A DNA stretch of 64,000 nucleotides from Arthrobacter sp. Leaf234 (lineage in GTDB: Bacteria; Actinomycetota; Actinomycetes; Actinomycetales; Micrococcaceae): contig NZ_LMLU01000007.1 of the NCBI RefSeq assembly GCF_001422665.1, positions 184,892 to 248,891 of the forward strand, read 5' to 3'. The position numbers were made by a program, and so were the translations under genes. Under the pieces are notes generated by a model. It was not told the DNA's origin. It worked only from the letters and a program-made list of their open reading frames with translations, and did not search any database. Positions 34,942 to 49,400 of the stretch are shown one piece after another (within the stretch, counting starts at the first letter, position 1; every line of letters begins with the position of its first letter).

Positions 34942-37557
34942 ATGGCCAGGCGCCAGACCCCCGCTCCGCCGGAGGATTTCACCGAGAAGATCATCGACGT
35001 CGACGTCGAAGCCGAGATGGAGGAGTCCTTCCTCGAGTACGCGTACTCGGTCATCTATTCGCGTGCCCTGCCGGACGCTCGCGACGGGCTCAAGCCCGTG
35101 CAGCGGCGCATCCTCTACATGATGTCCGACATGGGGCTGCGTCCCGACCGCGGCCATGTGAAATCCGCCCGCGTGGTGGGCGAGGTCATGGGGAAGCTCC
35201 ACCCGCACGGTGACAGCGCCATCTACGACGCCATGGTCCGCATGGCCCAGGACTTCTCCCTGCGGCTGCCCCTCATCGACGGGCACGGCAACTTCGGGTC
35301 GCTCGACGACGGACCGGCGGCCGCGCGCTACACGGAAGCCCGTCTCGCAGCAGCGGCGCTGACCATGACGAACCACCTCGACGAGGACGTCGTCGACTTC
35401 ATCCCCAACTACGACAACTCGCTCGAACAGCCCGAGGTGCTCCCGGCGGCCTTCCCCAACCTCCTCGTCAACGGTGCGAGCGGGATCGCGGTGGGCATGG
35501 CGACGAACATGCCGCCGCACAATCTCGGCGAGGTCGTCGCCGCCGCACGTCACCTGATCGCGAACCCCGACGCACCGCTCGAGGACCTCATGCGGTTCAT
35601 CCCCGGCCCGGACCTCCCGAGCGGCGGGAAGATCGTCGGGCTCGACGGCGTGCGCGACGCCTACGCGACGGGCCGCGGCTCGTTCAAGACCCGGGCGACG
35701 GTCAAGGTGGAGCAGCTCTCCGCGCGGCGGACAGGCCTCGTGGTGACCGAGCTGCCCTACACCGTCGGCCCGGAGAAGGTGATCGAGCGCATCAAGGACG
35801 CCGTGACCGCCAAGAAGCTGCAGGGCATCTCGGACATCGTCGACCTCACCGACCGGAAGCACGGGCTGCGGCTCGTGATCGAGCTCAAGAACGGGTTCAA
35901 TCCGAATGCCGTCCTCGCGCAGCTGTACCGGTTCACGCCCATGGAGGATTCCTTCGGCATCAACAACGTGGCGCTCGTCGACGGACAGCCCCGCACCCTG
36001 GGGCTCGTGGAGCTCCTGCAGGTCTATGTAGCGCACCGCATCCTCGTGGTCCGCCGTCGCACCTCCTACCGGCTGCAGCGCAAGCGCGACCGCCTGCACC
36101 TCGTCGAGGGCCTGCTCGTCGCCATCGTGGACATCGACGAGGTCATCCAGATCATCCGTTCGTCCGACGAGTCCTCCGCCGCGCGCGAGCGCCTGATGGC
36201 CATCTACGATCTCACCGAGATCCAGGCCAACTACATCCTCGAACTGCGCCTGCGCCAGCTCACCCGCTACTCGCGCATCGAGCTCGAGAAGGAGCAGGAG
36301 CAGTTGCGTCTCGAGATCGCCGAGCTGGAGGCGATCCTCGGGTCGGAGGAGCGCCTGCGGACCCTCGTCTCCGACGAGCTCGCGGCACTGTCCGAGCAGT
36401 TCGCGACACCACGCCGCACGGTCCTCCTCGAGTCCGAGGCGGCCGCCCCGCTCAAGGGGTCCAGCCTGCCCGCTCCCGCGGGCAAGGGGGCGAAGGCCGT
36501 CATGCCGCTCGAGATCGCCGACGACCCCTGCTGGGTCCTGCTCTCGGCCTCGGGTCAGCTCGCCCGGACGTCGGACCGGGAGCCTCTTGCCGACGGCCAG
36601 CGCATCAAGCACGACGCCTTCCGTTCCGTGCTGCCGTCCACGGCCCGCGGCGAGGTAGGTGCGGTGACGTCGGCGGGTCGCATGATCCGCCTGCAGGTGA
36701 TGGACATGCCGGCCCTCCCGCCCACGGCCGGAGTGCCGAATCTCGCGGGCGGCGTGCCGTCGACGGAGTTCATCACCCTCGAGCGCGGGGAGCGCCTGAT
36801 AGGACTCGCTCCGCTCAACGGCGTGGTGGCTCTCGGCACGGCGCAGGGCGTGGTGAAGCGCGTGCAGCCGGACCATCCGCTGAACAGGGACGACTGGGAG
36901 GTCATCTCGCTGAAGCCGAAGGACGCCGTCGTGGGTGTCGCGACCGCCGCGGACGAGGACGATCTCGTCTTCGTCACCCGCACGGCCCAGCTCCTGCGCT
37001 TCCCGGCGTCGGCCGTGCGGCCGCAGGGCAGGACCGCCGGCGGGATGGCAGGCATCAAGCTGGGGGCCGGGGACACCGTGCTGCACTTCGGCGCCGTCGC
37101 GGCCGGCGACGGCCAGGCCGTCGTCGTGACGGTCACGGCTGCGGGAGATGCACTGCCGGGGACCTCGGCCGGCTCGGCCAAGGTCACCGAGTTCGCCGAG
37201 TACCCGGTCAAGGGACGCGCGACCGCGGGAGTGCGCGCCCACCGTTTCCTTCGCGGCGAGGAATCGCTCTCCCTGGCCTGGGCCGGTCACGGTCCGGCGA
37301 GGGCCGCCTCCACGAACGGCGTGGCGCGGGCCCTGCCGACCGAGCACGGACGCCGGGACGGATCCGGCGTGCCCCTCACGCAGCAGATCGACGCGGTCGG
37401 CCCGGCGCTGAAGGGACTCCTCGAGCCCGGGAGATCGGGAGCGGAGGCTCCGGTCGGGAAGACGCAGCCCGCGAACGATGATGCTCCGGATACGGTCAGG
37501 GCGGTCGACGGCTCGGCCGGTGGAACACCCGACGACGCGCAGGGCACCCTGCTCTAG
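34942..37557 (+). CDS. parC: DNA topoisomerase IV subunit A
   Basis: An 871-residue type IIA topoisomerase A subunit, which cuts and rejoins DNA to decatenate chromosomes. The winged-helix region has [30 protein letters not shown] (the Ser and Asp linked to quinolone susceptibility are intact) and the catalytic Tyr in [10 protein letters not shown] (about residue 133). A coiled tower and a C-terminal beta-pinwheel (about 510-820) follow. It is called ParC rather than GyrA because a parE-like gene lies nearby and the pinwheel lacks a clear GyrA box; gyrAB should be elsewhere. GAGGA precedes ATG 34942. Confidence 0.9.
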
Positions 37558-38895: not shown

Positions 38896-41800
38896 CTACG
38901 GGCGGATGCGGGGTACCGCGGCCTCCGCCTGCCTGCGCGCCGCGCCGAGGAGCAGGACCTCGTCGCAGGTCGCCGCCTCGGCGGGATCGTGCGTCACGAG
39001 GAGTACGGCGGTGTGCGGCAGGCCACCGCGCAGGTCGGTGAGCAGCGCGCGGGCACCGTCACGGTCCAAGTGCGCGGTCGGCTCGTCGAGGAGCACGACG
39101 CGGGACCGCGTGAGCAGGGCACGTGCAACGGCGAGCCGCTGGCGCTGCCCGCCCGAGAGGCGCGACCCGCCGGAGCCCACCTGGGCATCGAGACCGTCTT
39201 CGAGTCCGTCCACCAGCTCCGCCAGGCCCACCGCCCGGACCACCGCGCGGAGCTCCTCCTCCGTGGCGGGATCCCCGGGCCTCCGGGCGAGCTGGAGGTT
39301 CGCCCGCAGGGTGGAGGTGAACAGGTGGCTCTCCTGCGGACACCAGGCGACCCGCGGCCTCGTCGACGGCCGGGCGGACCCGCCATCGACGAGGAGCCGC
39401 CCCGTATCCAGCGGCAGGAAGCCGAGGAGCGCGCCGAGGACGGTCGACTTGCCGCTCCCCGAAGCGCCGGTGAGACCCGTCCACCGACCCGGGACGAGCG
39501 TGAGGTCCACGCCGGTGACCACGGGCTCCCCGGGCACGTACCCGATCGAGGCGTCCTCGAGGGCGAGCGTCGAGGCGGCGACGGGATCCTGCCGGTCCGG
39601 CCGGGCGTCGTCGCGTCCCGCCGTCGGCGCAGCGTCCAGCGACGGCCGGAGCCTCCCCACCACGGCGGCGAGCGGACCCCAGTGCCGGACGGCCGATGTA
39701 CCGGCCGCGAACGGCTCGATCAGGGCGAGTTGCATGAGGACGAGGACGGCCGTGACATCGGCCGGCAGCCCCTCCGCCGTGACGAGGATGCCCAGAGCTG
39801 CGGCTGAGCACGCGGCGACCACCACCGCGGTCGACACCCCGGCTGCCGCTGCGGAACGATGCGCCGCGCGGGCGAGCAGCGCCTCCGTCCGACGTGTCGC
39901 CAGCAGGGCGGGACCGTGGACACCGTTGACGCGGAGATCAGGTGCGGCCCGCAGCAGCCGCGCTACCCGTCCGAGGGCATCCGCCCTCAGCTGCACTGCC
40001 GCAGCACCCGCCGCCCGTTCCCTGAGGACCGCGACCACGGGCGCGACGACGACGGCGCCGCCCACGGCGAGGACCTGCCAGCCCAGGGAGGCGGGGTGCA
40101 GGACGGCAGTCGTCACCAGGGCCGCCGCGCCGGTGAGGCCAGCGGTGAGGAAGGGTGACAGCGCCCGCGCGGAGAGGTCCCTCAGCTCGTCGACGTCGCC
40201 GACGAGCTGCTCGATCGCGCCGGATCCGCGAGCCAGCGTCCGCCAGGACTGCCCTGCGCGGAGGAGGCCTGTCCAGAGGCGGAGCCGCGTCTCGTCCGCC
40301 CGGTGGAAGACCGCCCGGTGGAGCCAGAGCCGCTCCTCGTAGCGCAGGAGCGACCGGCCGATGCCGAAGAATCGCACGCCGACGATCGCCGTGAGCAGGT
40401 AGAGGATGGGCGGCTGTTCCGATGCGCGGACGATCAGCCAGCCGCTGAGCGCGGCCAGGGCGACCGCGAACACGGCGGATCCGAGACCGAGGAGTGTCGC
40501 GGCGACGAAGCGCCGGTCCCACGGCTTCACGAGGACCAGCACGTGACGCGCCGAATGCAGCCACCCGGAGACGGACGGTCGCGTCCCCGGGACGCCGGTG
40601 GACGGGTCCGCAGACGGATCCTCCGCCGTCCGTCCCGTCATCCGTCCCGTCGTCCGCCCTGCTGTCCGTTCCGTTGCGCGGGACGCAGCACGTGGAGCGG
40701 CCGGCGCCGATGCGCCGGACGGGACACCGGTCGGGACGCCGGTCGATGCACCGGACGGGACACCGGTCGATGCACCGGTCGGGACGCCGGTCGAGCTGCT
40801 GGTCAGGGTATCCGTCGAGACATCGGTCGGGCTGTCGGTCGGGCTGCCGGTCGGGCAGCCGGTCGGGCAGCCGGTCGAGGTGCCGAATGACGTGGCGGAC
40901 GGGGTGGGCGACGATGCGACCGCCGATGCCCGTAGCTCGGGCCCGTCAGGCGCGTCAGGCCTGTCAGCGATCGGCAGACCCACGGCCGACGCACTCGTGG
41001 TGGCCCGGGTGCCGGCCGCGGCTCCCAGGTGGACCTGCGTGTCGGCGATGGCCGCGGTGGCGTCGTCGTGCGCGATCAAAAGGACCGTCAGCCCCGGCCG
41101 ACGCAGCGCGATCGCGGCGCGGATGGCTGCGGAGGATCCTTCGTCGACGTGCGCTGTCGGCTCGTCGAGGAGGAGCAGCCCGACTGCAGGGTCCTGCGCG
41201 CGCAGGAGAGCCCGGGCGACGGCGACGCGCCGCAGCTCGCCGGGACTGAGCTCGCCCGTCCGACGGTCGACGAGGTCCGCCGCGCCCACGCCTGCGAGCA
41301 CCTCGGTGATCGCGGGATCGTCCTCCTCCGTCCGTCCGTACAGCGCGAGTTCTGCGCGCACCGTCGGGGCGATCAGCTCCGGATGCTGCGGAACCCACGC
41401 CACCGCGCCGTCCGCCGGTGTTGTGATCGTCCCCTCCAGGTGCAGCCCTGCCGGCAGCGCCGCCCCGCCGGCAAGAGTGCGCATGAGCGTCGACTTGCCG
41501 GTCCCGCTCGGTCCCCTGAGTGCGGTGACCGTTCCCCGGTCGAGCCGGAAGGACACGCCCGACACGACGGGCGGGACGACGCCGTCGTACCGGACCGTCA
41601 CGTCCTCCAGCCTGGCGGTCACCGGGTCCGCCACCGCCGATCGGACCAAAGCCGCACCGGCCGTCGACGGCGGCGGGGCGTCGATGACGGCGCGCACGCG
41701 CTCGCCGCTCTCCTCGCCGTCCTCGCTCGCGTGGTGCGCGGCTCCGACGTCGCGCAGCGGCCCGTAGCACTCGGGCGCGAGGATCAGGGCGATCAGGGCG

Positions 41801-42717
41801 GTTTCGAGTCCAAGGTCCCCGTGGATGAGGCGTACACCGGCGAAGACGGCGACGACGGCGACCGAGATGGTGCTGATCAGTTCGAGGGCCAGCGAGGACA
41901 GGAAGACGGTCCGGAGGGTCGTCATGGTGCGCGATGAATAATCTGCGGCGATCTCGCGCAGCGCCCTGGTCTGCTCGCCCGCGCGGCCGAGGCCCACGAG
42001 CACCGGCAGCCCCCGGGCCAGTTCCAGGAGATGGTCGGAGAGCCGTCCGAGCGCCGTGGCTGCCTGCTGCGTCCGCTCCTGCGTGTGCAGGCCGATGAGG
42101 ACCATGAACACCGGCACGAGGGGGACGGTGAGGACGATGATGAGTGCGCTCACCCAGTCTGCGGCGAGGATCCGCGCGCCGACGAGGAGTGGCACGACGG
42201 TGCAGGTGATGAGCGACGGCAGGTACTGCGTGTAGTACGCGTCGAGTCCGTCGAGGCCGCGTGTGAGCAGCACGGCGAGGGAGCCCTGGCCGGTGCCGCC
42301 GTGGGCCGCCCGGGTGGTCCCCCCGTCGTCGAGCACGCGCAGCAGCGCCGCCTCACGGAGCCGCTCGCGGACGCCGAGGGCCAGCCGGGCGGCGGTGGCG
42401 TCCTGCCCCCAGGCCGCCACCGTCCGGAGGATCGCGCCCGCGACGCCCTGGACGAGGACGGCCCCCACCTCGAGATCGCCTGCGGCGACGGAGGCGATGC
42501 CGACAGCGAGTGCCTGCGCCATGAGGACCAGGCCGAGCGCGCGTGCTGCGGCGAGGACACCGAGGAGATAGACCGCCGTCGTCGATCCGGCCGCACCGGC
42601 CGGTCCGCCCGCCCTCAAGGAGGCGATGGGGGACCTCCGCGCGGCAGGCGCCGACGCAGCGGGCGCCTGCGACAGGTCACCGGCGGGGACGTCCGCGGTG
42701 GGCGTGAAGTCGCGCAT
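38896..42717 (-). CDS. cydDC: Fused CydD-CydC thiol reductant ABC exporter
   Basis: A 1273-residue fusion of two ABC half-transporters that export cysteine/glutathione-type reductants and are needed to assemble cytochrome bd. CydD half: membrane part (about 60-330), Walker A GPSGTGKSTLM (about 405), LSPGELRR, Walker B LLLLDEPTAHVD (about 516). A linker of about 150 residues (about 566-716) is Ser/Thr/Gly/Pro-rich with internal repeats. CydC half: membrane part, GASGSGKSTVLGALL (about 1087), LSGGQRQRLAVARALL, VVLLDEPTAHLD (about 1210). CydCD fusions are known in actinobacteria. ATG 42717 has AGGA at 6 bp; GTG 42741 overlaps the cydB stop and is an alternative. Confidence 0.93.
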   Translation of the reverse strand: MRDFTPTADVPAGDLSQAPAASAPAARRSPIASLRAGGPAGAAGSTTAVYLLGVLAAARALGLVLMAQALAVGIASVAAGDLEVGAVLVQGVAGAILRTVAAWGQDATAARLALGVRERLREAALLRVLDDGGTTRAAHGGTGQGSLAVLLTRGLDGLDAYYTQYLPSLITCTVVPLLVGARILAADWVSALIIVLTVPLVPVFMVLIGLHTQERTQQAATALGRLSDHLLELARGLPVLVGLGRAGEQTRALREIAADYSSRTMTTLRTVFLSSLALELISTISVAVVAVFAGVRLIHGDLGLETALIALILAPECYGPLRDVGAAHHASEDGEESGERVRAVIDAPPPSTAGAALVRSAVADPVTARLEDVTVRYDGVVPPVVSGVSFRLDRGTVTALRGPSGTGKSTLMRTLAGGAALPAGLHLEGTITTPADGAVAWVPQHPELIAPTVRAELALYGRTEEDDPAITEVLAGVGAADLVDRRTGELSPGELRRVAVARALLRAQDPAVGLLLLDEPTAHVDEGSSAAIRAAIALRRPGLTVLLIAHDDATAAIADTQVHLGAAAGTRATTSASAVGLPIADRPDAPDGPELRASAVASSPTPSATSFGTSTGCPTGCPTGSPTDSPTDVSTDTLTSSSTGVPTGASTGVPSGASTGVPTGVPSGASAPAAPRAASRATERTAGRTTGRMTGRTAEDPSADPSTGVPGTRPSVSGWLHSARHVLVLVKPWDRRFVAATLLGLGSAVFAVALAALSGWLIVRASEQPPILYLLTAIVGVRFFGIGRSLLRYEERLWLHRAVFHRADETRLRLWTGLLRAGQSWRTLARGSGAIEQLVGDVDELRDLSARALSPFLTAGLTGAAALVTTAVLHPASLGWQVLAVGGAVVVAPVVAVLRERAAGAAAVQLRADALGRVARLLRAAPDLRVNGVHGPALLATRRTEALLARAAHRSAAAAGVSTAVVVAACSAAALGILVTAEGLPADVTAVLVLMQLALIEPFAAGTSAVRHWGPLAAVVGRLRPSLDAAPTAGRDDARPDRQDPVAASTLALEDASIGYVPGEPVVTGVDLTLVPGRWTGLTGASGSGKSTVLGALLGFLPLDTGRLLVDGGSARPSTRPRVAWCPQESHLFTSTLRANLQLARRPGDPATEEELRAVVRAVGLAELVDGLEDGLDAQVGSGGSRLSGGQRQRLAVARALLTRSRVVLLDEPTAHLDRDGARALLTDLRGGLPHTAVLLVTHDPAEAATCDEVLLLGAARRQAEAAVPRIRP
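40640..40880. repeat. Degenerate repeats coding the CydD-CydC linker
   Basis: Short units around CCGGTCGGGACG and CCGGTCGATGCACCGG recur many times, giving protein repeats such as STGVPTGA, STGVPSGA and SPTDSPTD, and a second set TGRMTGR. The pattern suggests growth by slippage. Confidence 0.8.
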
Positions 42718-42737: not shown

Positions 42738-43760
42738 TCACAGGGCGTGGACGGCGTGGGCCGCGGGGATGCTCTCCTCGGAGACACGCCGGCGGAACAC
42801 CCAGTAGGTCCAGGCCTGGTACGCCAGGACAAGGGGTAATCCGATGCAGGCGACGATGCTCATCAGGCCGAGCGTGTAGGGCGAGGACGAGGCATTCTGC
42901 ACCGTGAGGTCGAACGCGGTGTCGATCGTGGACGGCAGGACCACAGGGAAAGCGGCGCCGAAGATGGACCCGACGAGGACGAGCATCCCGATGCCGAGGG
43001 CGGCGAAGGCCCGGCCGTCCCGCCCGGTCGCGGCGGACCTGTAGGAGGCCAGGAAGGCGACCACGCCGAGGACGACGGCGGACCAGGTGACCACGGTGCC
43101 GTCGTCGGCCTGGACGAGGAGCGCCCACCCGACGAACGGGATCATGGCGACCGGCAGCAGCCGCCGGAACAGGCGATCAGCCTGGCGGCGGACGCCACCC
43201 TCGGTCTTGAGTGCCACGAACGCCGCCGCGTGCACGAGGCAGAAGAGCACGACGGCGACCGCTCCGAGGAGTGCCGGTGGCGTGGCCCAGGCGAACGCCC
43301 CGCCGACCCGGTCGCCGTTCGCGTCGAGCGGCAGTCCCGTGGTGGTCAGGGCGAGGGCCGCCCCGATGCCTGCTGCCGCGGTGAAGGAGCCGAGGGCGAT
43401 GGCCCAGTCCCACCGGTTGCGCCAGGCGTCGCTGTCACGCTTGCCCCTCCACTCGAAGGCCACGGCCCGGAAGATCAGTCCGAGGAGCACGAGCATGAAC
43501 GGCAGATAGAGCGCGGACAGGAGGGAGGCGTACCAGAGGGGGAACGCGGCGAAGGTTGCACCGACGGCGGTCACGAGCCAGACCTCGTTGCCGTCCCAGA
43601 CCGGCCCCACGGTGTTGAGCAGGACGCGCCGCTGGGTGTCGCTTCGCGCCATGAGCTTCATGAGCATGCCGACGCCGAGGTCGAAACCCTCGAGGAAGAG
43701 GTAGCCGGCCCAGAGCAGGGCGATGAGGACGAACCACACGGTGGGCAGGGCCTCGGTCAT
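42738..43760 (-). CDS. cydB: Cytochrome bd oxidase subunit II
   Basis: A 340-residue integral membrane subunit with eight or nine helices. Motifs: FVLIALLWAGYLFLEGFDLGVGML at the N-terminus, GPVWDGNEVWLVTAVGATFAAFP, and PYTLGLMSIVA near the end. With CydA it forms the quinol oxidase that reduces oxygen to water with very high affinity and supports respiration under low oxygen or when the cytochrome c branch is blocked. It lies 75 bp after cydA and touches cydDC, in one cydABDC operon. The ATG at 43760 gives the usual start. Confidence 0.96.
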   Translation of the reverse strand: MTEALPTVWFVLIALLWAGYLFLEGFDLGVGMLMKLMARSDTQRRVLLNTVGPVWDGNEVWLVTAVGATFAAFPLWYASLLSALYLPFMLVLLGLIFRAVAFEWRGKRDSDAWRNRWDWAIALGSFTAAAGIGAALALTTTGLPLDANGDRVGGAFAWATPPALLGAVAVVLFCLVHAAAFVALKTEGGVRRQADRLFRRLLPVAMIPFVGWALLVQADDGTVVTWSAVVLGVVAFLASYRSAATGRDGRAFAALGIGMLVLVGSIFGAAFPVVLPSTIDTAFDLTVQNASSSPYTLGLMSIVACIGLPLVLAYQAWTYWVFRRRVSEESIPAAHAVHAL

Positions 43761-43835: not shown

Positions 43836-45410
43836 TCAGTACGCGAACGCGAGGACATCGCCGTCGTCCTTCCTGCCGCTCCGCGGGTCTTCGTCGTCGT
43901 CGGTGTGGGCGAGTTCGGGCATGGCGGATGCGGTGCCACCCCGGACGTAGGTCACGAGGAGCCTCACCTCGACGACGAGGAGCACGGCGTAGACGGCGGT
44001 GAACAGCACGAGGGAGGTGACGAGTTCGGCGAGGGACACTCCGGGTGACACGGCTGCCGCGGTGAACATGAAGACTCCGTCGACGCCGGTCGGATCCGGG
44101 TTGGGGGCGACGACGAAGGGCTGGCGGCCCATCTCGGTGAACACCCAGCCCGCGATGTTCGCGCCGAAGGGCGCGAGGATGCCGAACACCGCCAGGCGCA
44201 TGAGCCAGCGCGACTCCGGGACGGTGCCCCTGCGCAGGACCCACAGGGCGGCTGCGGCTGCAGCGGCCGCGATCGCACCGAAGCCGATCATGATGCGGAA
44301 GCCCCAGTAGGTGACCTCCATGACGGGCAGGTAGTCGATCTCGGTGCCGGCGAGGTCGCCGTACCGGGGGTCGTCGGGCAGATTCGTGCCGTACTTCTCC
44401 TGGTACTCCGGGAGGAGGGTGTTCACACCCTTGACCTCGGTGGTGAAGTCGCCATTGGCGAGGAAGGAGAGCACCCCCGGGACCTCGATCACGGCGGTGA
44501 TGTCGTCGCAGCTCTGCGCCCCGAGGTTGCCGACGGACAGGATGGAGAATCCGGTGCCGTCGTGGCAGGCAGCCTCGGCCGCGGCCATCTTCATGGGCTG
44601 CTGGTCGAACATCAGCTTGCCCTGGAGGTCGCCGGTGATCCCGGTACCCGCGAACGCGATCATCGCGACGACGGCCCCGGCGCGCGCCGAGCGCAGCCAC
44701 ACGGCGTGGTCGACGGCGTCCCGGGACCCCGTCCGTGCGCCGACGACGACCCTGCCGTCCGCACCGACGGCGTCGATCCCGTCGTGGCGACGCCTCCACA
44801 GGTGGTACCAGCTGATGCCGAGGAGGAATGCCCCGGCGACGGCGAGGCATCCGAAGAGCGTGTGGGGGAAGGCGACGAGCGCCGTGTTGTTGGTGAAGAC
44901 GGCCCACGCGTCCGTCATCACCGGCCTGCCGTCGACCATCTCGACGCCCACGGGGTGCTGCATCCAGGAGTTCGCCACCAGGATGAAGTAGGCGGAGAAC
45001 ACCGAGGCGAGGACCGCCGCCCAGAGCGACATGAGGTGCAGCCGCTTCGGCAGGCGGCCCCAGCCGAAGATCCAAAGGCCCAGGAAGGTGGACTCGACGA
45101 AGAAGGCGAGCAGCGCCTCCATGGCCAGCGGGGCGCCGAAGACGTCACCGACGAAACGACTGTACTCACTCCACGCCATGCCGAACTGGAACTCCTGCAC
45201 AAGTCCCGTGGCCACCCCGACGATGAAGTTGATGAGGAAGAGCTTCCCCCAGAACTTGGTCATGCGCAGATACTGCTCATGACCGGTGCGATGCCACATG
45301 GTCTGCATCATCGCCACCAGGAGCCCGAGACCGATCGTCAGGGGCACCATGACGAAGTGGTAGACGGTCGTGATCCCGAATTGCCACCTGGCGATCTCCA
45401 AGGCTTCCAT
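43836..45410 (-). CDS. cydA: Cytochrome bd oxidase subunit I
   Basis: A 524-residue haem-bearing subunit of cytochrome bd. Haem ligand regions are visible: His in ARWQFGITTVYHFVMVP, GLVQEFQFGMAWSEYSRFVGDVFG, His186-type TALVAFPHTLFGC, the Q-loop region QQPMKMAAAEA, and the Met393-type segment EVTYWGFRIMIGFG. The Q loop is the short form, without the long insertion of E. coli. GAGAGGG precedes ATG 45410. The upstream region carries three palindromic operators shared with the divergent blaI gene, so oxidase expression is probably repressed by BlaI. The C-terminal tail is acidic. Confidence 0.96.
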   Translation of the reverse strand: MEALEIARWQFGITTVYHFVMVPLTIGLGLLVAMMQTMWHRTGHEQYLRMTKFWGKLFLINFIVGVATGLVQEFQFGMAWSEYSRFVGDVFGAPLAMEALLAFFVESTFLGLWIFGWGRLPKRLHLMSLWAAVLASVFSAYFILVANSWMQHPVGVEMVDGRPVMTDAWAVFTNNTALVAFPHTLFGCLAVAGAFLLGISWYHLWRRRHDGIDAVGADGRVVVGARTGSRDAVDHAVWLRSARAGAVVAMIAFAGTGITGDLQGKLMFDQQPMKMAAAEAACHDGTGFSILSVGNLGAQSCDDITAVIEVPGVLSFLANGDFTTEVKGVNTLLPEYQEKYGTNLPDDPRYGDLAGTEIDYLPVMEVTYWGFRIMIGFGAIAAAAAAAALWVLRRGTVPESRWLMRLAVFGILAPFGANIAGWVFTEMGRQPFVVAPNPDPTGVDGVFMFTAAAVSPGVSLAELVTSLVLFTAVYAVLLVVEVRLLVTYVRGGTASAMPELAHTDDDEDPRSGRKDDGDVLAFAY

Positions 45411-45451
45411 GAGACCCTCTCAGCTGTGCCCACCGTCGCTCCGGACGGGAC

Positions 45452-45523
45452 TTCTACGGCGTGTAGAAGAGTTCTTCTACACAGTGTAGAACGATTCCGA
45501 CTGCACTTCTACGTGGAGTAGAA
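45452..45523. promoter_or_regulatory. Three BlaI-type operators between cydA and blaI
   Basis: Three perfect inverted repeats of the form TTCTAC-N5-GTAGAA lie at 45452-45468 (spacer GGCGT), 45475-45491 (ACAGT) and 45507-45523 (GTGGA). The middle one extends to TTCTACAC-A-GTGTAGAA. They are 42-113 bp upstream of cydA and 110-182 bp upstream of blaI, and resemble the TACA-N-TGTA core of known BlaI/MecI operators. Palindromes are seen; BlaI binding is inferred. Confidence 0.82.
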
Positions 45524-45632
45524 ATGTGCGGCTCGACGCTGTACGTTAGATGCACCACGCCTCATCGCTCCCTGCCGGGAGCGGATCCCCGTCCGAGGCG
45601 GGCCGGGATCGCGGAATGACTGAAGGAAGAAC

Positions 45633-46001
45633 ATGGCAACGCTCGGAGACCTCGAACGCACGGTGATGGATCTGCTGTGGGCGACGCCGGAGGCGGCCAC
45701 CGCCAATGAACTGCGGGACGCCATCGCCGAGGCACCGTCGGGAGAAGTGGGACGTGAACTGGCCGTGACGACGGTGCTGACGGTCCTGTCCCGGCTCGAG
45801 AAGAAGGGCCTGGTGGAGCGGGAGCGCGACAGCCGCCCTCATCGGTACAGGTCGGTGACCAGCCGCGAGGACCACACGGCAGAGCTGATGCACGAGGTCC
45901 TCGTGACGGCCCCCGACCGCGAGGCCGTGCTCGCCCGCTTCATCGGCAGCGTCTCGGAGACCGAGGCGCAGACCCTCCGCAAGCTGCTCGGCGGCAGCTG
46001 A
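45633..46001 (+). CDS. blaI: BlaI/MecI/CopY-family repressor
   Basis: A 122-residue winged-helix repressor. The N-terminal DNA-binding domain (about 1-80) has MATLGDLERTVMDLLWATPEAATANEL, LAVTTVLTVLSRLEKKGLVERER, then HRYRSVTSREDHTAELM, and a C-terminal dimer helix region (about 85-120, VLARFIGSVSETEAQTLRKLL). Family members bind paired palindromes and are inactivated by proteolysis triggered by a partner M56 peptidase, here the next gene. Divergent from cydABDC with three shared operators, it probably controls both operons. AAGGA lies 5 bp before ATG 45633. Confidence 0.93.
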   Translation: MATLGDLERTVMDLLWATPEAATANELRDAIAEAPSGEVGRELAVTTVLTVLSRLEKKGLVERERDSRPHRYRSVTSREDHTAELMHEVLVTAPDREAVLARFIGSVSETEAQTLRKLLGGS

Positions 46002-46008
46002 CCCTCCG

Positions 46009-47001
46009 ATGTTCTGGGCCTCCTATCTCCTGGCGGCTCTCGCGATCATCCTCGCGTGGCCTGCGCCGATCGCGCTGTCACGTGCGTCCTGGCCGGCCCG
46101 GGCGCCGTTCACGGCGATGGTGCTCTGGCAGTCGATTGCACTGGCGGGTGGCCTGTCGATGATCGGGGCGATGCTCGTCTGGGGTCTCGAACCCCTGGGG
46201 GACAACCTCGTCTCCGCCTCCGTGGGTTTCCTCGACATCCTGATCGACGACGAATCCGCTGAGACACTCGGTGTCGTCCACGTCTTCGCCATCAGCGCGG
46301 CGACCCTGCTGTTCGCCCATCTGGTCAGCACCCTGGTCCTGACCTTCATGCGCATCCGGCGCCAGCGCCGCCGGCACCGCGACATGCTGAACCTGCTGAG
46401 TTCGCCTGCGGCGGATCAGCCCGCAACGCTCGTGATCAACCATCCCGCTCCGGTCGCCTACTGCCTGCCCGGTGGCGCCCGGTCGGTCACCGTCATGTCC
46501 GACGGCCTCATGGACCTGCTGACCCGCGCCGAACTCGACGCCGTGCTGACGCACGAGAGCGCCCACCTGCACCAGCGCCACCACCTGCTGCTGTGGGCGT
46601 TCGCGGCCTGGCGCTCCGCGCTCCCCTGGCTTCCGACGTCACGGCTCGCCCAGCGGGCCGTGAGTGAGCTCATCGAGATGCTCGCCGACGACGAGGCTCT
46701 GCGCCATGTGGACGAGCCCACCCTCGTGCGGGCGATCGCCATCGTCGGCTCGGGGGCGCTCCCCCGGGCGGAGGACGTCCTGGACGACCCCCTTGCCGAC
46801 GACCCCGGACGCGACACGAGTGCAGGTGCCGAGGTGACCGGCGGGACGGCCGACACGCGGTCCACGGCGCACCGCCTGAGCCGGCTGCTCACACCGCTTC
46901 CACCACTGAGCAGATTCCAGCAGGGTCTGGCCCTCTCGACGGCCGGCCTGCTGCTCGTGGTCCCGCCCGTCCTGCTGGTGGCACCGGAACTGCTCGGCTG
47001 A
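46009..47001 (+). CDS. M56-family membrane metallopeptidase (BlaR1-like, no sensor domain)
   Basis: A 330-residue membrane peptidase. Two or three N-terminal helices (about 3-115) precede a gluzincin domain with the zinc motif HESAH (about residue 184) and the third ligand Glu in ELIEMLADDEAL (about 225). A final helix lies at about 308-328. Unlike BlaR1 of staphylococci it has no C-terminal penicillin-binding domain, so the signal is unknown. It follows blaI by 7 bp with no own ribosome site, implying translational coupling. It probably cleaves BlaI, directly or not, to release the cyd and blaI promoters. Confidence 0.9.
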   Translation: MFWASYLLAALAIILAWPAPIALSRASWPARAPFTAMVLWQSIALAGGLSMIGAMLVWGLEPLGDNLVSASVGFLDILIDDESAETLGVVHVFAISAATLLFAHLVSTLVLTFMRIRRQRRRHRDMLNLLSSPAADQPATLVINHPAPVAYCLPGGARSVTVMSDGLMDLLTRAELDAVLTHESAHLHQRHHLLLWAFAAWRSALPWLPTSRLAQRAVSELIEMLADDEALRHVDEPTLVRAIAIVGSGALPRAEDVLDDPLADDPGRDTSAGAEVTGGTADTRSTAHRLSRLLTPLPPLSRFQQGLALSTAGLLLVVPPVLLVAPELLG

Positions 47002-47038: not shown

Positions 47039-49147
47039 TCAGGCGTCGATGCGGTCCCGGTCGAGCGACGACGCTCCGGCCACGATGAAGTCCTTCCGCG
47101 GAGCGACATCACTCCCCATGAGGAGGTTGAACACGCGCTCGGCGGACTCCGCCTCCTGGATCCGCACACGCCGCAGCGTACGGTGCCGCGGATCCATGGT
47201 GGTCTCGGCCAGCTGGTCGGCGTCCATCTCCCCCAATCCCTTGTACCGCTGGATGGGCGACTTGTAGCGCTTGCCCTGCTTCTCCATCGCCGCGAGCAGG
47301 CGGTTGAGTTCCGCCTCCGAGTACGTGTAGATCATCTCGTTCGCCTTCGACCCGCCGTTGATCACCTCGACCCGGTGCAGGGGCGGGACCGCGGCATACA
47401 CACGCCCGTCCTCCACCAGCGGCCGCATGTAGCGGAAGAACAGCGTGAGCAGGAGCGTGCGGATGTGCGCGCCGTCGACGTCGGCGTCCGTCATCAGGAT
47501 GACCTTGCCGTACCTCCGGGCATCGAGCTGGAAGCTCCGTCCGGACCCGGCGCCGATGACCTGGATAAGGGCAGCACACTCGGCGTTCGACAGCATGTCG
47601 CCGACCGAGGCCTTCTGCACGTTCAGGATCTTGCCCCGGATGGGAAGCAGCGCCTGGTAGTCGGAGGACCGTGCGTTCTTGGCCGTCCCGAGAGCGCTGT
47701 CCCCCTCGACGATGAACAGCTCGGAACGCTCCTGGTCGTCGATGCGGCAATCGGCGAGCTTCGCGGGCATGGTCGAGGTCTCCAGGGCGTTCTTCCGGCG
47801 CTGGGTCTCCTTGTGGACACGCGCCGAGATGCGCGACTTCATCTCCGCCACGACCTTCTCGAGGAGGAGCGTGGACTGCGTCTTGTCGTTGCGCGCCGAG
47901 GAGGTCAGCCGCGCCTGCAGCTCCTTCTCGACGACCTTCGTCACGATGGCCTTCACCGCCGACGTGCCGAGGATCTCCTTCGTCTGGCCCTCGAACTGGG
48001 GCTCGGCGAGCCGCACGGTGAGCACGGCGGTGAGCCCCGCGAAGACGTCGTCCTTCTCGATCTTGTCGCTGCCGGCCTTCAGCTTGCGGGCGTTGTCCCC
48101 GATGACCTTGCGGAACGTCTTCAGGAGGGCCCCTTCGAAGCCGCTCTGGTGCGTCCCGCCCTTCGGCGTCGCGATGATGTTGACGTAGCTGCGCACGGTG
48201 GTCTCGTAGCCGATGCCCCAGCGCAGGGCGATGTCGACGTCGCAGTCGCGCTCGACCTCGGCCATCCTGCTGTGTCCCCGCTCGTCGAGGACGGGGACCG
48301 ACTCCTTGAACCGACCCGACCCCTGGATCCGCCAGACGTCCGTTACGGCGGCATCGAGGGCCAGGAACTCGGCGTACTCCGAGATGCCGCCGTCGTGCTG
48401 GAAGACCTCTTCCACCGGCCCGGACTCACCGGGCGTACCCGGCATCCTCCGCTCGTCGCGCAGCACGATGCGGAGTCCCGGGACCAGGAAGGACGTCTGT
48501 CGTGCCCGCGTCTGGAGCTCCTCGTAGGAGAAGGTCGCATCGGCGGTGAAGATCTGGCGGTCCGCCCAGTACCTGATGCGCGTCCCGGTGACACCCCGTT
48601 TCGCCGTCCCGACCACGTCGAGGCGCGATCCGTCGAGGAACGGCTCGAAGGCGGATGTGGGCGACGGCGTCCTCGCGTCCTTGAAGGTGCCGGGTTCACC
48701 GCGGCGGAAGGACATGGTGTACGTCTTGCCGCCGCGGTCCACGAAGGCGTCCAGCCTCGAGGAGAGGGCATTGACCACACTGGCCCCGACACCGTGCAAC
48801 CCGCCGGAGGCGGTGTAGGAGCCGCCACCGAACTTGCCTCCGGCATGGAGTTTCGTGAAGACGACCTCGACCCCGGTCAGACCGGTCTTGGGTTCGATGT
48901 CCACCGGGATACCACGCCCGTCGTCGTGGATCTCGACGGACCCGTCGGCGTGCAGGATGACGGTGATGCTCTGTCCGTGCCCGGCCAGGGCTTCGTCAAC
49001 CGAGTTGTCGATGATCTCCCAGAGGCAGTGCATGAGGCCCCGCGAGTCCGTCGACCCGATGTACATGCCGGGGCGCTTGCGGACTGCTTCGAGTCCCTCG
49101 AGCACCGAGAGGTGCCGGGCTGTGTAGTCCGAAGTGGGAGGTGTCAC
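47039..49147 (-). CDS. parE: DNA topoisomerase IV subunit B
   Basis: A 702-residue ATPase subunit of topoisomerase IV. The GHKL ATPase domain (about 10-230) has YTARHLSVLEGLEAVRKRPGMYIGS, EIIDNSVDEA, DDGRGIPVD and GGLHGVGASVVNAL. The transducer follows, then TOPRIM (about 450-570) with ELFIVEGDSALGTAK, PIRGKILNVQKAS and MTDADVDGAHIRTLLLT; a C-terminal ...RYKGLGEMDADQL segment contacts ParC. GTG 49147 is chosen because the usual protein starts close before YTARHL; GTG 49177 is possible. Its partner parC is 9.5 kb away on the other strand. Confidence 0.93.
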   Translation of the reverse strand: MTPPTSDYTARHLSVLEGLEAVRKRPGMYIGSTDSRGLMHCLWEIIDNSVDEALAGHGQSITVILHADGSVEIHDDGRGIPVDIEPKTGLTGVEVVFTKLHAGGKFGGGSYTASGGLHGVGASVVNALSSRLDAFVDRGGKTYTMSFRRGEPGTFKDARTPSPTSAFEPFLDGSRLDVVGTAKRGVTGTRIRYWADRQIFTADATFSYEELQTRARQTSFLVPGLRIVLRDERRMPGTPGESGPVEEVFQHDGGISEYAEFLALDAAVTDVWRIQGSGRFKESVPVLDERGHSRMAEVERDCDVDIALRWGIGYETTVRSYVNIIATPKGGTHQSGFEGALLKTFRKVIGDNARKLKAGSDKIEKDDVFAGLTAVLTVRLAEPQFEGQTKEILGTSAVKAIVTKVVEKELQARLTSSARNDKTQSTLLLEKVVAEMKSRISARVHKETQRRKNALETSTMPAKLADCRIDDQERSELFIVEGDSALGTAKNARSSDYQALLPIRGKILNVQKASVGDMLSNAECAALIQVIGAGSGRSFQLDARRYGKVILMTDADVDGAHIRTLLLTLFFRYMRPLVEDGRVYAAVPPLHRVEVINGGSKANEMIYTYSEAELNRLLAAMEKQGKRYKSPIQRYKGLGEMDADQLAETTMDPRHRTLRRVRIQEAESAERVFNLLMGSDVAPRKDFIVAGASSLDRDRIDA

Positions 49148-49400
49148 GGTGCGGGGGTCTCCTTGGCGGGACGGCACGATCCAGGACAGGAGTCAGGAGG
49201 GTGATGGTGGGGATGGCTCTCCGTCAGTTTATTACGGGTGACCGACACCGGCCGGAAGGGCGCGATCGGGGCCTGGTTCCGGGGCTCGGCGACTGCCTCC
49301 CATACCCCCGGTACGCCCGGAGCGAAAGGAGGCCCAGCCTGCGAAGAGGCTGCGACGAATAGTGGTTATATGAGTACACGATCCACATGAGGAGGCATTC

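Follow-up and report, generated by a model that had tools for sequence, protein, structure and literature searches.

In Staphylococcus aureus, the BlaI-BlaR1 and MecI-MecR1 systems act on genes for beta-lactamase or PBP2a. CopY, a regulator of copper efflux, is its own metal sensor. In Mycobacterium tuberculosis, BlaI binds to the promoters of cytochrome bd and ATP synthase (PMC5473688, citing Sala 2009), and the mycobacterial BlaR is described as having no sensor domain (PMC5473688). For Rv1303 of the ATP synthase operon there is an electrophoretic mobility shift assay, together with lower transcription upon BlaI overexpression (PMC12565901). In Synechocystis, PetR represses petE and is required for the expression of petJ (PMC7896320). 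Here, the region between cydA and blaI of Arthrobacter sp. Leaf234 is described, which lies in a window (the whole stretch of DNA analyzed) of 64 kb within a 3.5-Mb genome. The closest named relatives, by BlaI identity, are Arthrobacter bussei (99%) and A. agilis (97%). In this bacterium, BlaI very probably represses both cydABDC and its own gene directly, because its predicted operators are conserved, tied to cydA and placed over a predicted -10 box. The full reading, i.e., an autoregulating BlaI repressor of cytochrome bd that is released by a protease and has a respiratory regulon, is given a probability of about 0.86. The core of this link is not new, since BlaI binding at the cytochrome bd promoter of M. 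tuberculosis has already been published (PMC5473688). What appears to be new is the depth of the arrangement, which extends over 13 sampled families of the class, the two-site operator of cydA, the co-variation of operator and repressor, and the respiratory regulon. Among the literature matches listed, none describes this set of operators or places BlaI at cydA in bacteria other than mycobacteria.

The cydA start (45410, minus strand) and the blaI start (45633, plus strand) are divergent, with cydB and then a fused cydDC following on the minus strand, and the protease gene starts 7 bases after blaI. The original prediction placed three perfect palindromes between these divergent genes, and they are indeed found there; the interval it named, 45411-45632, encloses them and equals the entire intergenic region, not the palindromes alone. 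The features are the following.

45452..45468, no strand: operator 1, TTCTACGGCGTGTAGAA, cydA-proximal, perfect TTCTAC-N5-GTAGAA
45475..45491, no strand: operator 2, TTCTACACAGTGTAGAA, covering the probable -10 box of cydA, perfect TTCTAC-N5-GTAGAA
45507..45523, no strand: operator 3, TTCTACGTGGAGTAGAA, blaI-proximal, overlapping the probable blaI -35, perfect TTCTAC-N5-GTAGAA
45483..45488, minus strand: TACACT within operator 2, probable -10 hexamer for cydA, deduced from aligned spacers
45542..45547, plus strand: probable -10 hexamer TACGTT of blaI, for which the -35, TAGAAA, would overlap operator 3
43836..45410, minus strand: cydA, cytochrome bd subunit I (PF01654, 499.8 bits)
42738..43760, minus strand: cydB, cytochrome bd subunit II (PF02322, 338 bits; TIGR00203, 275.6 bits)
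38896..42717, minus strand: fused cydD-cydC, cytochrome bd assembly ABC exporter, single frame (TIGR02857, 645.8 bits, and TIGR02868, 547.2 bits)
45633..46001, plus strand: blaI, BlaI/MecI-type winged-helix repressor of 122 aa (PF03965, 78.9 bits)
46009..47001, plus strand: membrane zinc protease of 330 aa, BlaR1-like but with no sensor domain (PF01435, 42 bits; HESAH motif at residues 182-186)

The repressor belongs to PF03965, Penicillinase_R, which it matches over residues 4-119 with 78.9 bits against a cut-off of 22.6. Its best relative among solved structures is 2g9w (E 9.7e-19), and it matches the MecI structure at E 8e-4. With the CopY/TcrY model TIGR02698 it reaches 29.7 bits, far under the cut-off of 121.95.

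The three perfect copies are the only ones in the 64-kb window, as had been predicted, and all lie in the cydA-blaI intergenic region. None occurred in any of 100 dinucleotide shuffles of the window, and base composition predicts 0.0002 copies per window and 0.012 per genome (3.52 Mb used for this expectation). A scan of the own genome, which had been proposed as a check, gave six perfect sites and none for a reversed control pattern, and chance as the source of the palindromes was set aside on these numbers (0/100, 0, and 0.012 against 6). With up to three mismatches allowed, the window contains 14 matches, the shuffle mean being 2.77. The sites had also been likened to the TACA-N-TGTA type, which applies to the middle one only, with its TACA...TGTA core; the outer two are TAC-N5-GTA.

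Conservation was studied in the best 80 of 321 BlaI matches from a search of genome contigs (73-99% identical). In 69 of these 80 relatives, cydA is divergent from and adjacent to blaI. Three perfect palindromes are present in 65 of the 69 adjacent loci and two in the other four, with the missing site having one mismatch in L012 and L058; conservation among relatives, a further check set in advance, was thereby established. The spacers within and between the palindromes are variable among the 69 relatives. In the 65 relatives with three sites, operator 1 lies 27-46 bp from the cydA start (sd 5.8), operator 2 lies 51-70 bp from cydA, and operator 3 lies 58-115 bp from blaI (sd 7.3). Because these distances are kept while the gap between operators 2 and 3 ranges from 31 to 190 bp, start to start, the sites appear to be held as separate modules, two accompanying cydA and one accompanying blaI.

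The strongest evidence that the operator pair belongs to cydA, judged from these genomes, is its natural separation from blaI. In 11 of the 80 relatives cydA is not beside blaI, which then has a single perfect site in ten cases and two in one, so that each of the 80 has at least one perfect palindrome upstream of blaI. A CydA search of 13 whole genomes (these 11 and two others) gave a match in nine. Where cydA was located elsewhere, a perfect pair was present at its promoter in seven of seven genomes, 23-25 bp apart, and this retention by a distant cydA is the reason for assigning the pair to it; the seven are partly non-independent, two being named Arthrobacter echini. The four genomes without a CydA match have one blaI site (three genomes) or two (one genome). 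The whole-genome site listing covers 11 of 20 genomes, with G003 minus one site. A compact version was observed in five loci of family f6 (L186, L188-L191), in which the paired operators of cydA are directly contiguous (17 bp apart) and a third, degenerate site lies near blaI.

On the cydA strand, the spacer of operator 2 is mostly ACTnT in the 69 relatives (A 78%, C 84%, T 97%), and that of operator 1 is unconstrained in the 69 aligned pairs. Because of this conserved spacer, TACACT was placed inside operator 2, which probably encloses it as a good actinobacterial -10 box; the 97% T falls at the end position of the putative box, and a T-rich, weakly conserved -35 lies 17 bp upstream. For blaI, a conserved TA.aTT is found in the 80 relatives at the corresponding distance from the nearest site, 17 bp on from the probable -35. 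With operator 1 downstream of the predicted cydA -10, the layouts at both cydA and blaI are repressor arrangements, as far as these predicted promoters go. It is conceivable that BlaI activates at some targets, as PetR is needed for petJ (PMC7896320), in which case destruction of BlaI by the protease would switch cydABDC off. The geometry of operators 1 and 2 and the -10-like hexamer inside most mycobacterial cydA operators speak against this activating role, which is very improbable.

The sites and BlaI are distributed together. Among 149 genomes of the order, perfect sites occur in 26, all of which have a BlaI homologue, and in none of the 83 genomes without one; for BlaI matches at E <1e-30, 21 of 22 genomes have a perfect site. 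Of 30 loci from the order, own locus included, 28 have cydA near blaI, as do 17 of 19 others from the class; these 30 and 19 are the best-scoring ones and not a random draw. The CydA match starts 0.6-0.9 kb away in several of the class loci, and two matches of about 30% identity there were confirmed by Pfam. With 7 of 20 loci chosen from other families added, cydA is near blaI in 13 sampled families altogether. Recognition helix and operator differ together across BlaI types, judged by inspection: BlaI proteins with a ..LAVTTVLTVLSRLEKK.. helix go with TTCTAC-N5-GTAGAA operators, and more distant ones with a ..LAYTTVMTVLDRLAKK.. helix go with TACKAC-N5-GTMGTA operators. Gene order can also vary, as in family f53 (L233, L234) cydA lies downstream of blaI and the protease gene in the same direction, not divergent. 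Another regulator, e.g., Rex, a CRP/FNR protein or a response regulator, might bind the palindromes with BlaI as a bystander. SenX3-RegX3 has been reported to regulate mycobacterial cydAB (PMC5874750), and BlaI binding at the palindromes is itself deduced from sequence. The restriction of perfect sites to genomes with BlaI, the site in all 80 close blaI promoters and the operator that differs with the recognition helix nevertheless make such a regulator very improbable.

A corresponding arrangement is found in family f22, which is taken to be Mycobacteriaceae because its CydA best matches chain 7nkz (968 bits) and, by eye, its BlaI closely resembles 2g9w; we take these structures to be M. tuberculosis CydA and Rv1846c, respectively. 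A strict pattern of operator plus cydA start occurs in 49 of 198 f22 genomes, the reversed control giving 0. From the genomes missed by this pattern 28 were picked, of which three had no CydA match, three a distant one only, two a broken gene and 20 an intact orthologue; G390 was left out of the cydA-site check. An operator is present at cydA in all 20 intact orthologues (19 perfect, one with one mismatch, L311), with its first base 27-60 bp before the cydA start. Together with six loci chosen for having the site, these 20 loci contain 25 perfect sites in 110 kb, one per locus, at cydA, and none elsewhere. The spacer reads TACACT in 11 of the 20 orthologues and TACnnT in 17. In the three f22 loci inspected, blaI and cydA are not neighbors. 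One mycobacterial genome has a perfect site before an ATP synthase I gene, a target class known in M. tuberculosis; in the own genome no operator was seen at the ATP synthase operon, cydA operators being present in both the own locus and mycobacteria. The two f22 genomes with a broken cydA, G507 and G542 (L331, L332, L336-L340), are 3.3 Mb in size and have several stop codons in the gene, presumably as expected of leprosy-type reduced genomes.

Genome-wide in f22, TACKAC-N5-GTMGTA is not specific (4-7 sites vs. 1-6 for the reversed control), and it was therefore used at the cydA and ctaE promoters only. No site with zero or one mismatch was seen at the mycobacterial ctaE-qcrC cluster in 20 genomes. 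All 20 (L341-L360) have, 34-43 bp before ctaE, the element AACTACAWARCGTCATA, which deviates from the BlaI operator of mycobacteria at two positions and may be a weak operator or merely conserved promoter; with two mismatches, the cluster was not counted as a BlaI target.

The idea that the palindromes serve autoregulation of blaI (and a beta-lactam response) only, with cydA affected through the shared intergenic region, fits the habit of BlaI-type proteins to autoregulate and the perfect site upstream of blaI in 80 of 80 relatives, whether cydA is adjacent or not, but is very improbable and largely refuted by the separate cydA loci, i.e., the distant cydA with its own perfect pair in seven of seven genomes and the mycobacterial cydA with its operator (20 of 20 intact orthologues), away from blaI in the three f22 loci inspected, and no beta-lactamase gene was recognized among the targets looked at, although no search aimed at beta-lactamase was made.

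Beyond the original prediction, the same operator lies before other respiratory-chain genes in closer relatives, which suggests that the predicted repressor controls respiration more widely. The remaining perfect sites of the own genome are found before chdC (coproheme decarboxylase, last heme step; its homologue matches NCBIfam HemQ_actino), within the ctaE-qcrCAB cluster before qcrC, and 137 bp upstream of an unknown gene of 80 aa. There are also 12 one-mismatch sites, nine of which were reviewed for targets (C1:530367, C1:633366 and C1:870450 were left out). Five have a coherent target by homologue or family, namely ctaE (divergent from trpD), resA (with ccdA and resB next), an ABC gene (with an ABC-membrane gene and ctaA further on), ctaB and the gene of the small protein L119p. 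The site at C1:622300 precedes a membrane protein that resembles copper-side proteins by eye only, BLAST giving no link; the one before sucC is a single occurrence, and nothing coherent lies behind C5:418914 and C6:205883.

In 15 genomes, 72 perfect sites outside the cyd loci were examined, one of which is a blaI site. Among the remaining 71, 47 stand before genes for heme, cytochromes, oxidase assembly, copper or globins, as judged by family or homologue, the classes resting on Pfam, NCBIfam and PDB matches of representatives. They comprise heme synthesis (chdC, 12), the bc1-aa3 branch and succinate dehydrogenase (qcrC 7, ctaC 1, sdhC 1), oxidase assembly (surf1 1, CtaG 2, ctaB 1, ABC-ctaA 1), cytochrome c maturation (histidine phosphatase 6, resA-like 4), copper (CopC, 2) and globins (flavohemoglobin-like 6, under the NCBIfam equivalog cut-off; group III truncated globin 3). 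The histidine phosphatase gene precedes resA in the own genome and in G091, and ctaB (L287) was assigned by reading, the automatic rule having missed it. In a wider reading the count is 51 of 71, adding four membrane proteins without known family, of which two lie beside DUF1775 or CopC genes and two are alike by eye only. G091, which has no CydA match in its blaI locus (the search was made at the locus only), has 15 perfect sites, including those of ctaC, ctaB, surf1 and sdhC.

Some of the proteins behind these operators have no known family. L119p is a small membrane-like protein without a Pfam or NCBIfam match, with the operator before it in eight genomes (one mismatch in the own genome), and is a candidate oxidase or heme accessory protein.

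L119:3119-3502 (own genome, C1): L119p family, with relatives in L127, L131, L137, L139, L148, L150 and L275

The 80-aa protein is found 137 bp behind a perfect operator both in the own genome (L116:3121-3363) and in the nearest relative (L153). A second small membrane protein, of ~132 aa and without a Pfam match, is behind the operator in L276, L292 and L298 (three genomes, two families), opposite genes that resemble isocitrate lyase or PEP carboxykinase by eye.

The partner peptidase had been predicted to be an M56 member without a beta-lactam-binding domain. The second part is borne out, as the protein ends at 330 aa after the last long helix and matches only the membrane and protease part of BlaR1, whose chains have 531-556 residues, the first 292 of which align. 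The first part stands for the predicted fold and the HExxH motif and not for the Pfam family, since Pfam prefers PF01435 Peptidase_M48 (42 bits) over PF05569 M56 (19.8 bits, cut-off 31). In a Foldseek search with the predicted model (pLDDT 88), BlaR1 was the sole match at E <0.001 (8.4e-4). The model aligns with 8exs_A (S. aureus BlaR1 residues 3-292) with Z 12.2 over 224 residues, followed by ZMPSTE24 with Z 9.8; a common arrangement in helical models can yield such Z values, and the five best rows are all BlaR1. H182, E183, H186, E223 and D227 are invariant in 27 aligned sequences and in 109, and either E223 or D227 would be the third zinc ligand. By its modeled fold, the protein may thus act as a BlaR1 minus the receptor. 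C152, ahead of the zinc motif, is likewise invariant in all aligned protease relatives and is a possible redox or metal sensor. On the side of the substrate, S. aureus BlaI is cleaved at N101-F102 by its partner protease. Phe 103 of the Arthrobacter BlaI is invariant in 111 sequences, which is compatible with a cleavage site and no proof of it.

In the mechanism proposed from these elements, a BlaI dimer on each of the two 17-bp palindromes at cydA, one over the -10 and one just downstream, would block cydABDC, and a further dimer at the third palindrome would block blaI and the protease gene. A signal from the respiratory chain or the membrane would switch on the sensor-less membrane zinc protease, which would inactivate BlaI, so that cytochrome bd could be made. 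Most probably, BlaI would also control chdC, ctaE-qcrCAB (bc1-aa3), the resA cytochrome c maturation genes, the ABC-ctaA operon and ctaB. As a guess, the signal is most likely that heme-copper oxidase no longer functions (because of copper lack, NO or another kind of inhibition), and not beta-lactams; the copper and heme-copper oxidase genes among the targets put a failing oxidase or a lack of copper first.

The DNA itself shows that the operators exist, are conserved, go with cydA, lie over a promoter-like hexamer and recur before respiratory genes; from this we infer binding, repression, co-transcription and cleavage. Several points weigh against the reading of BlaI as a repressor with a respiratory regulon, the first being that direct binding, expression and cleavage in Arthrobacter sp. 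Leaf234 are deduced in this way. Secondly, perfect sites are absent from 40 of the 66 genomes in the order that have some BlaI homologue, including G026 despite its close BlaI (E 1.4e-32), the cyd-linked loci L195 and L196 show no perfect palindrome, and 13 of the 20 loci chosen from other families have no cydA near the BlaI homologue. Thirdly, with up to two mismatches the own genome has 76 sites vs. 136 for the reversed control, so that the pattern is rarer than its control and weak operators cannot be told from chance; therefore only perfect and one-mismatch sites were used. Fourthly, 20 of the 71 perfect sites precede unknown or unrelated genes (L119p 7, second small membrane protein 3, 80-aa protein 2, PPOX protein 2, universal stress protein 2, others 4), and the four membrane proteins of the wider reading are placed with copper by neighbors or eye only. 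Some sites lie between divergent genes, which makes their target ambiguous (e.g., sdhC is 243 bp off and its divergent neighbor nearer). As part of the target panel comes from these very loci, the target counts describe and do not test. Lastly, the protease misses the Pfam M56 cut-off. The claim that BlaI controls cytochrome bd through three operators is nevertheless supported by their conservation, by the separate cydA pairs and by the mycobacterial literature, which also agrees with the expectation that a mycobacterial BlaI homologue reaches energy genes (cytochrome bd and ATP synthase promoters; PMC5473688).

Published co-regulations fit BlaI yet name other or no regulators. Copper deprivation of a chalkophore mutant jointly induces cydABDC, qcrABC and ATP synthase, which resembles the effect of Q203 (PMC12140626; the word "regulator" is absent from its main text). 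In a sigC mutant under copper limitation, cyd and rv1303-1305 are up (PMC7924339), and clofazimine raises cyd and ATP synthase genes in M. abscessus (PMC8765290). On cholesterol, cydA, cydD, ctaC and blaI are all down (PMC7771538, Table 1). A bolder proposal, to be held tentatively and at somewhat less than even odds, is that BlaI and the sensor-less protease are an ancient alarm, shared across the actinomycetes, that responds when the heme-copper oxidase branch fails. The protease would read copper supply, oxidase occupancy or the redox state of quinol and destroy BlaI, which would induce cytochrome bd along with genes for heme, cytochrome c, bc1-aa3, copper and NO defense. If so, the control of beta-lactam resistance would be a side branch of a respiration regulator, and BlaI would be the regulator, so far unnamed, through which copper loss or Q203 jointly induces cydABDC, qcrABC and ATP synthase in mycobacteria. 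How actinobacteria, mycobacteria included, sense a failing main oxidase and turn to cytochrome bd is relevant to respiration-targeting drugs, and the locus offers, in organisms that are harmless, a concrete candidate whose operators and protease are defined and whose targets are listed.

As for the surroundings, the cyd locus is flanked by gyrase/topoisomerase IV A-type and B-type genes (window 34942-37557 and 47039-49177), with a sigma-70 factor gene further on. CydD and CydC form one fused polypeptide (window 38896-42717), both NCBIfam models matching in one frame; its ATG at 42717 is a presumed start, the open frame extending to 43128.

Compared to the known systems, the Arthrobacter pair shares with BlaI-BlaR1 and MecI-MecR1 of S. 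aureus a winged-helix repressor of the same Pfam family and a protease predicted to have the same membrane and zinc-protease fold, whereas the C-terminal penicillin-binding sensor of BlaR1 is absent. CopY/TcrY belongs to the same superfamily, but the Arthrobacter BlaI is no CopY by the NCBIfam cut-off. BlaI-BlaR of M. tuberculosis (Rv1846c-Rv1845c) is similar in its related repressor, its sensor-less BlaR and the binding reported at the cytochrome bd promoter (PMC5473688), as well as in the f22 operators at cydA and, in one genome, at the ATP synthase I gene. It differs in that blaI is not beside cydA (three f22 loci), in its operator (TACKAC-N5-GTMGTA in f22 vs. TTCTAC-N5-GTAGAA in Arthrobacter), in having one cydA site instead of two, and in having blaC as a target, none being recognized among the targets looked at here (no dedicated search). 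PetR-PetP of Synechocystis, a copper switch between plastocyanin and cytochrome c6, differs in controlling photosynthetic carriers and not terminal oxidases, in its four-protein regulon and in PetR also being an activator (PMC7896320). For a copper response like the one shown there, the evidence here is circumstantial: the targets include CopC, CtaG/CopD and genes that adjoin DUF1775 or CopC. Like the Arthrobacter pair, PetR-PetP combines a BlaI-type regulator with a BlaR1-type protease without a beta-lactam role, and it controls interchangeable electron-transfer proteins and is encoded beside them (PMC7896320), just as blaI and its downstream protease gene adjoin an electron-transport gene (divergent cydA in 69 of 80 relatives). 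With this parallel in photosynthetic electron transport, the Arthrobacter locus suggests that a protein family known from penicillin resistance may have the control of respiration as an old and widespread task in the class.
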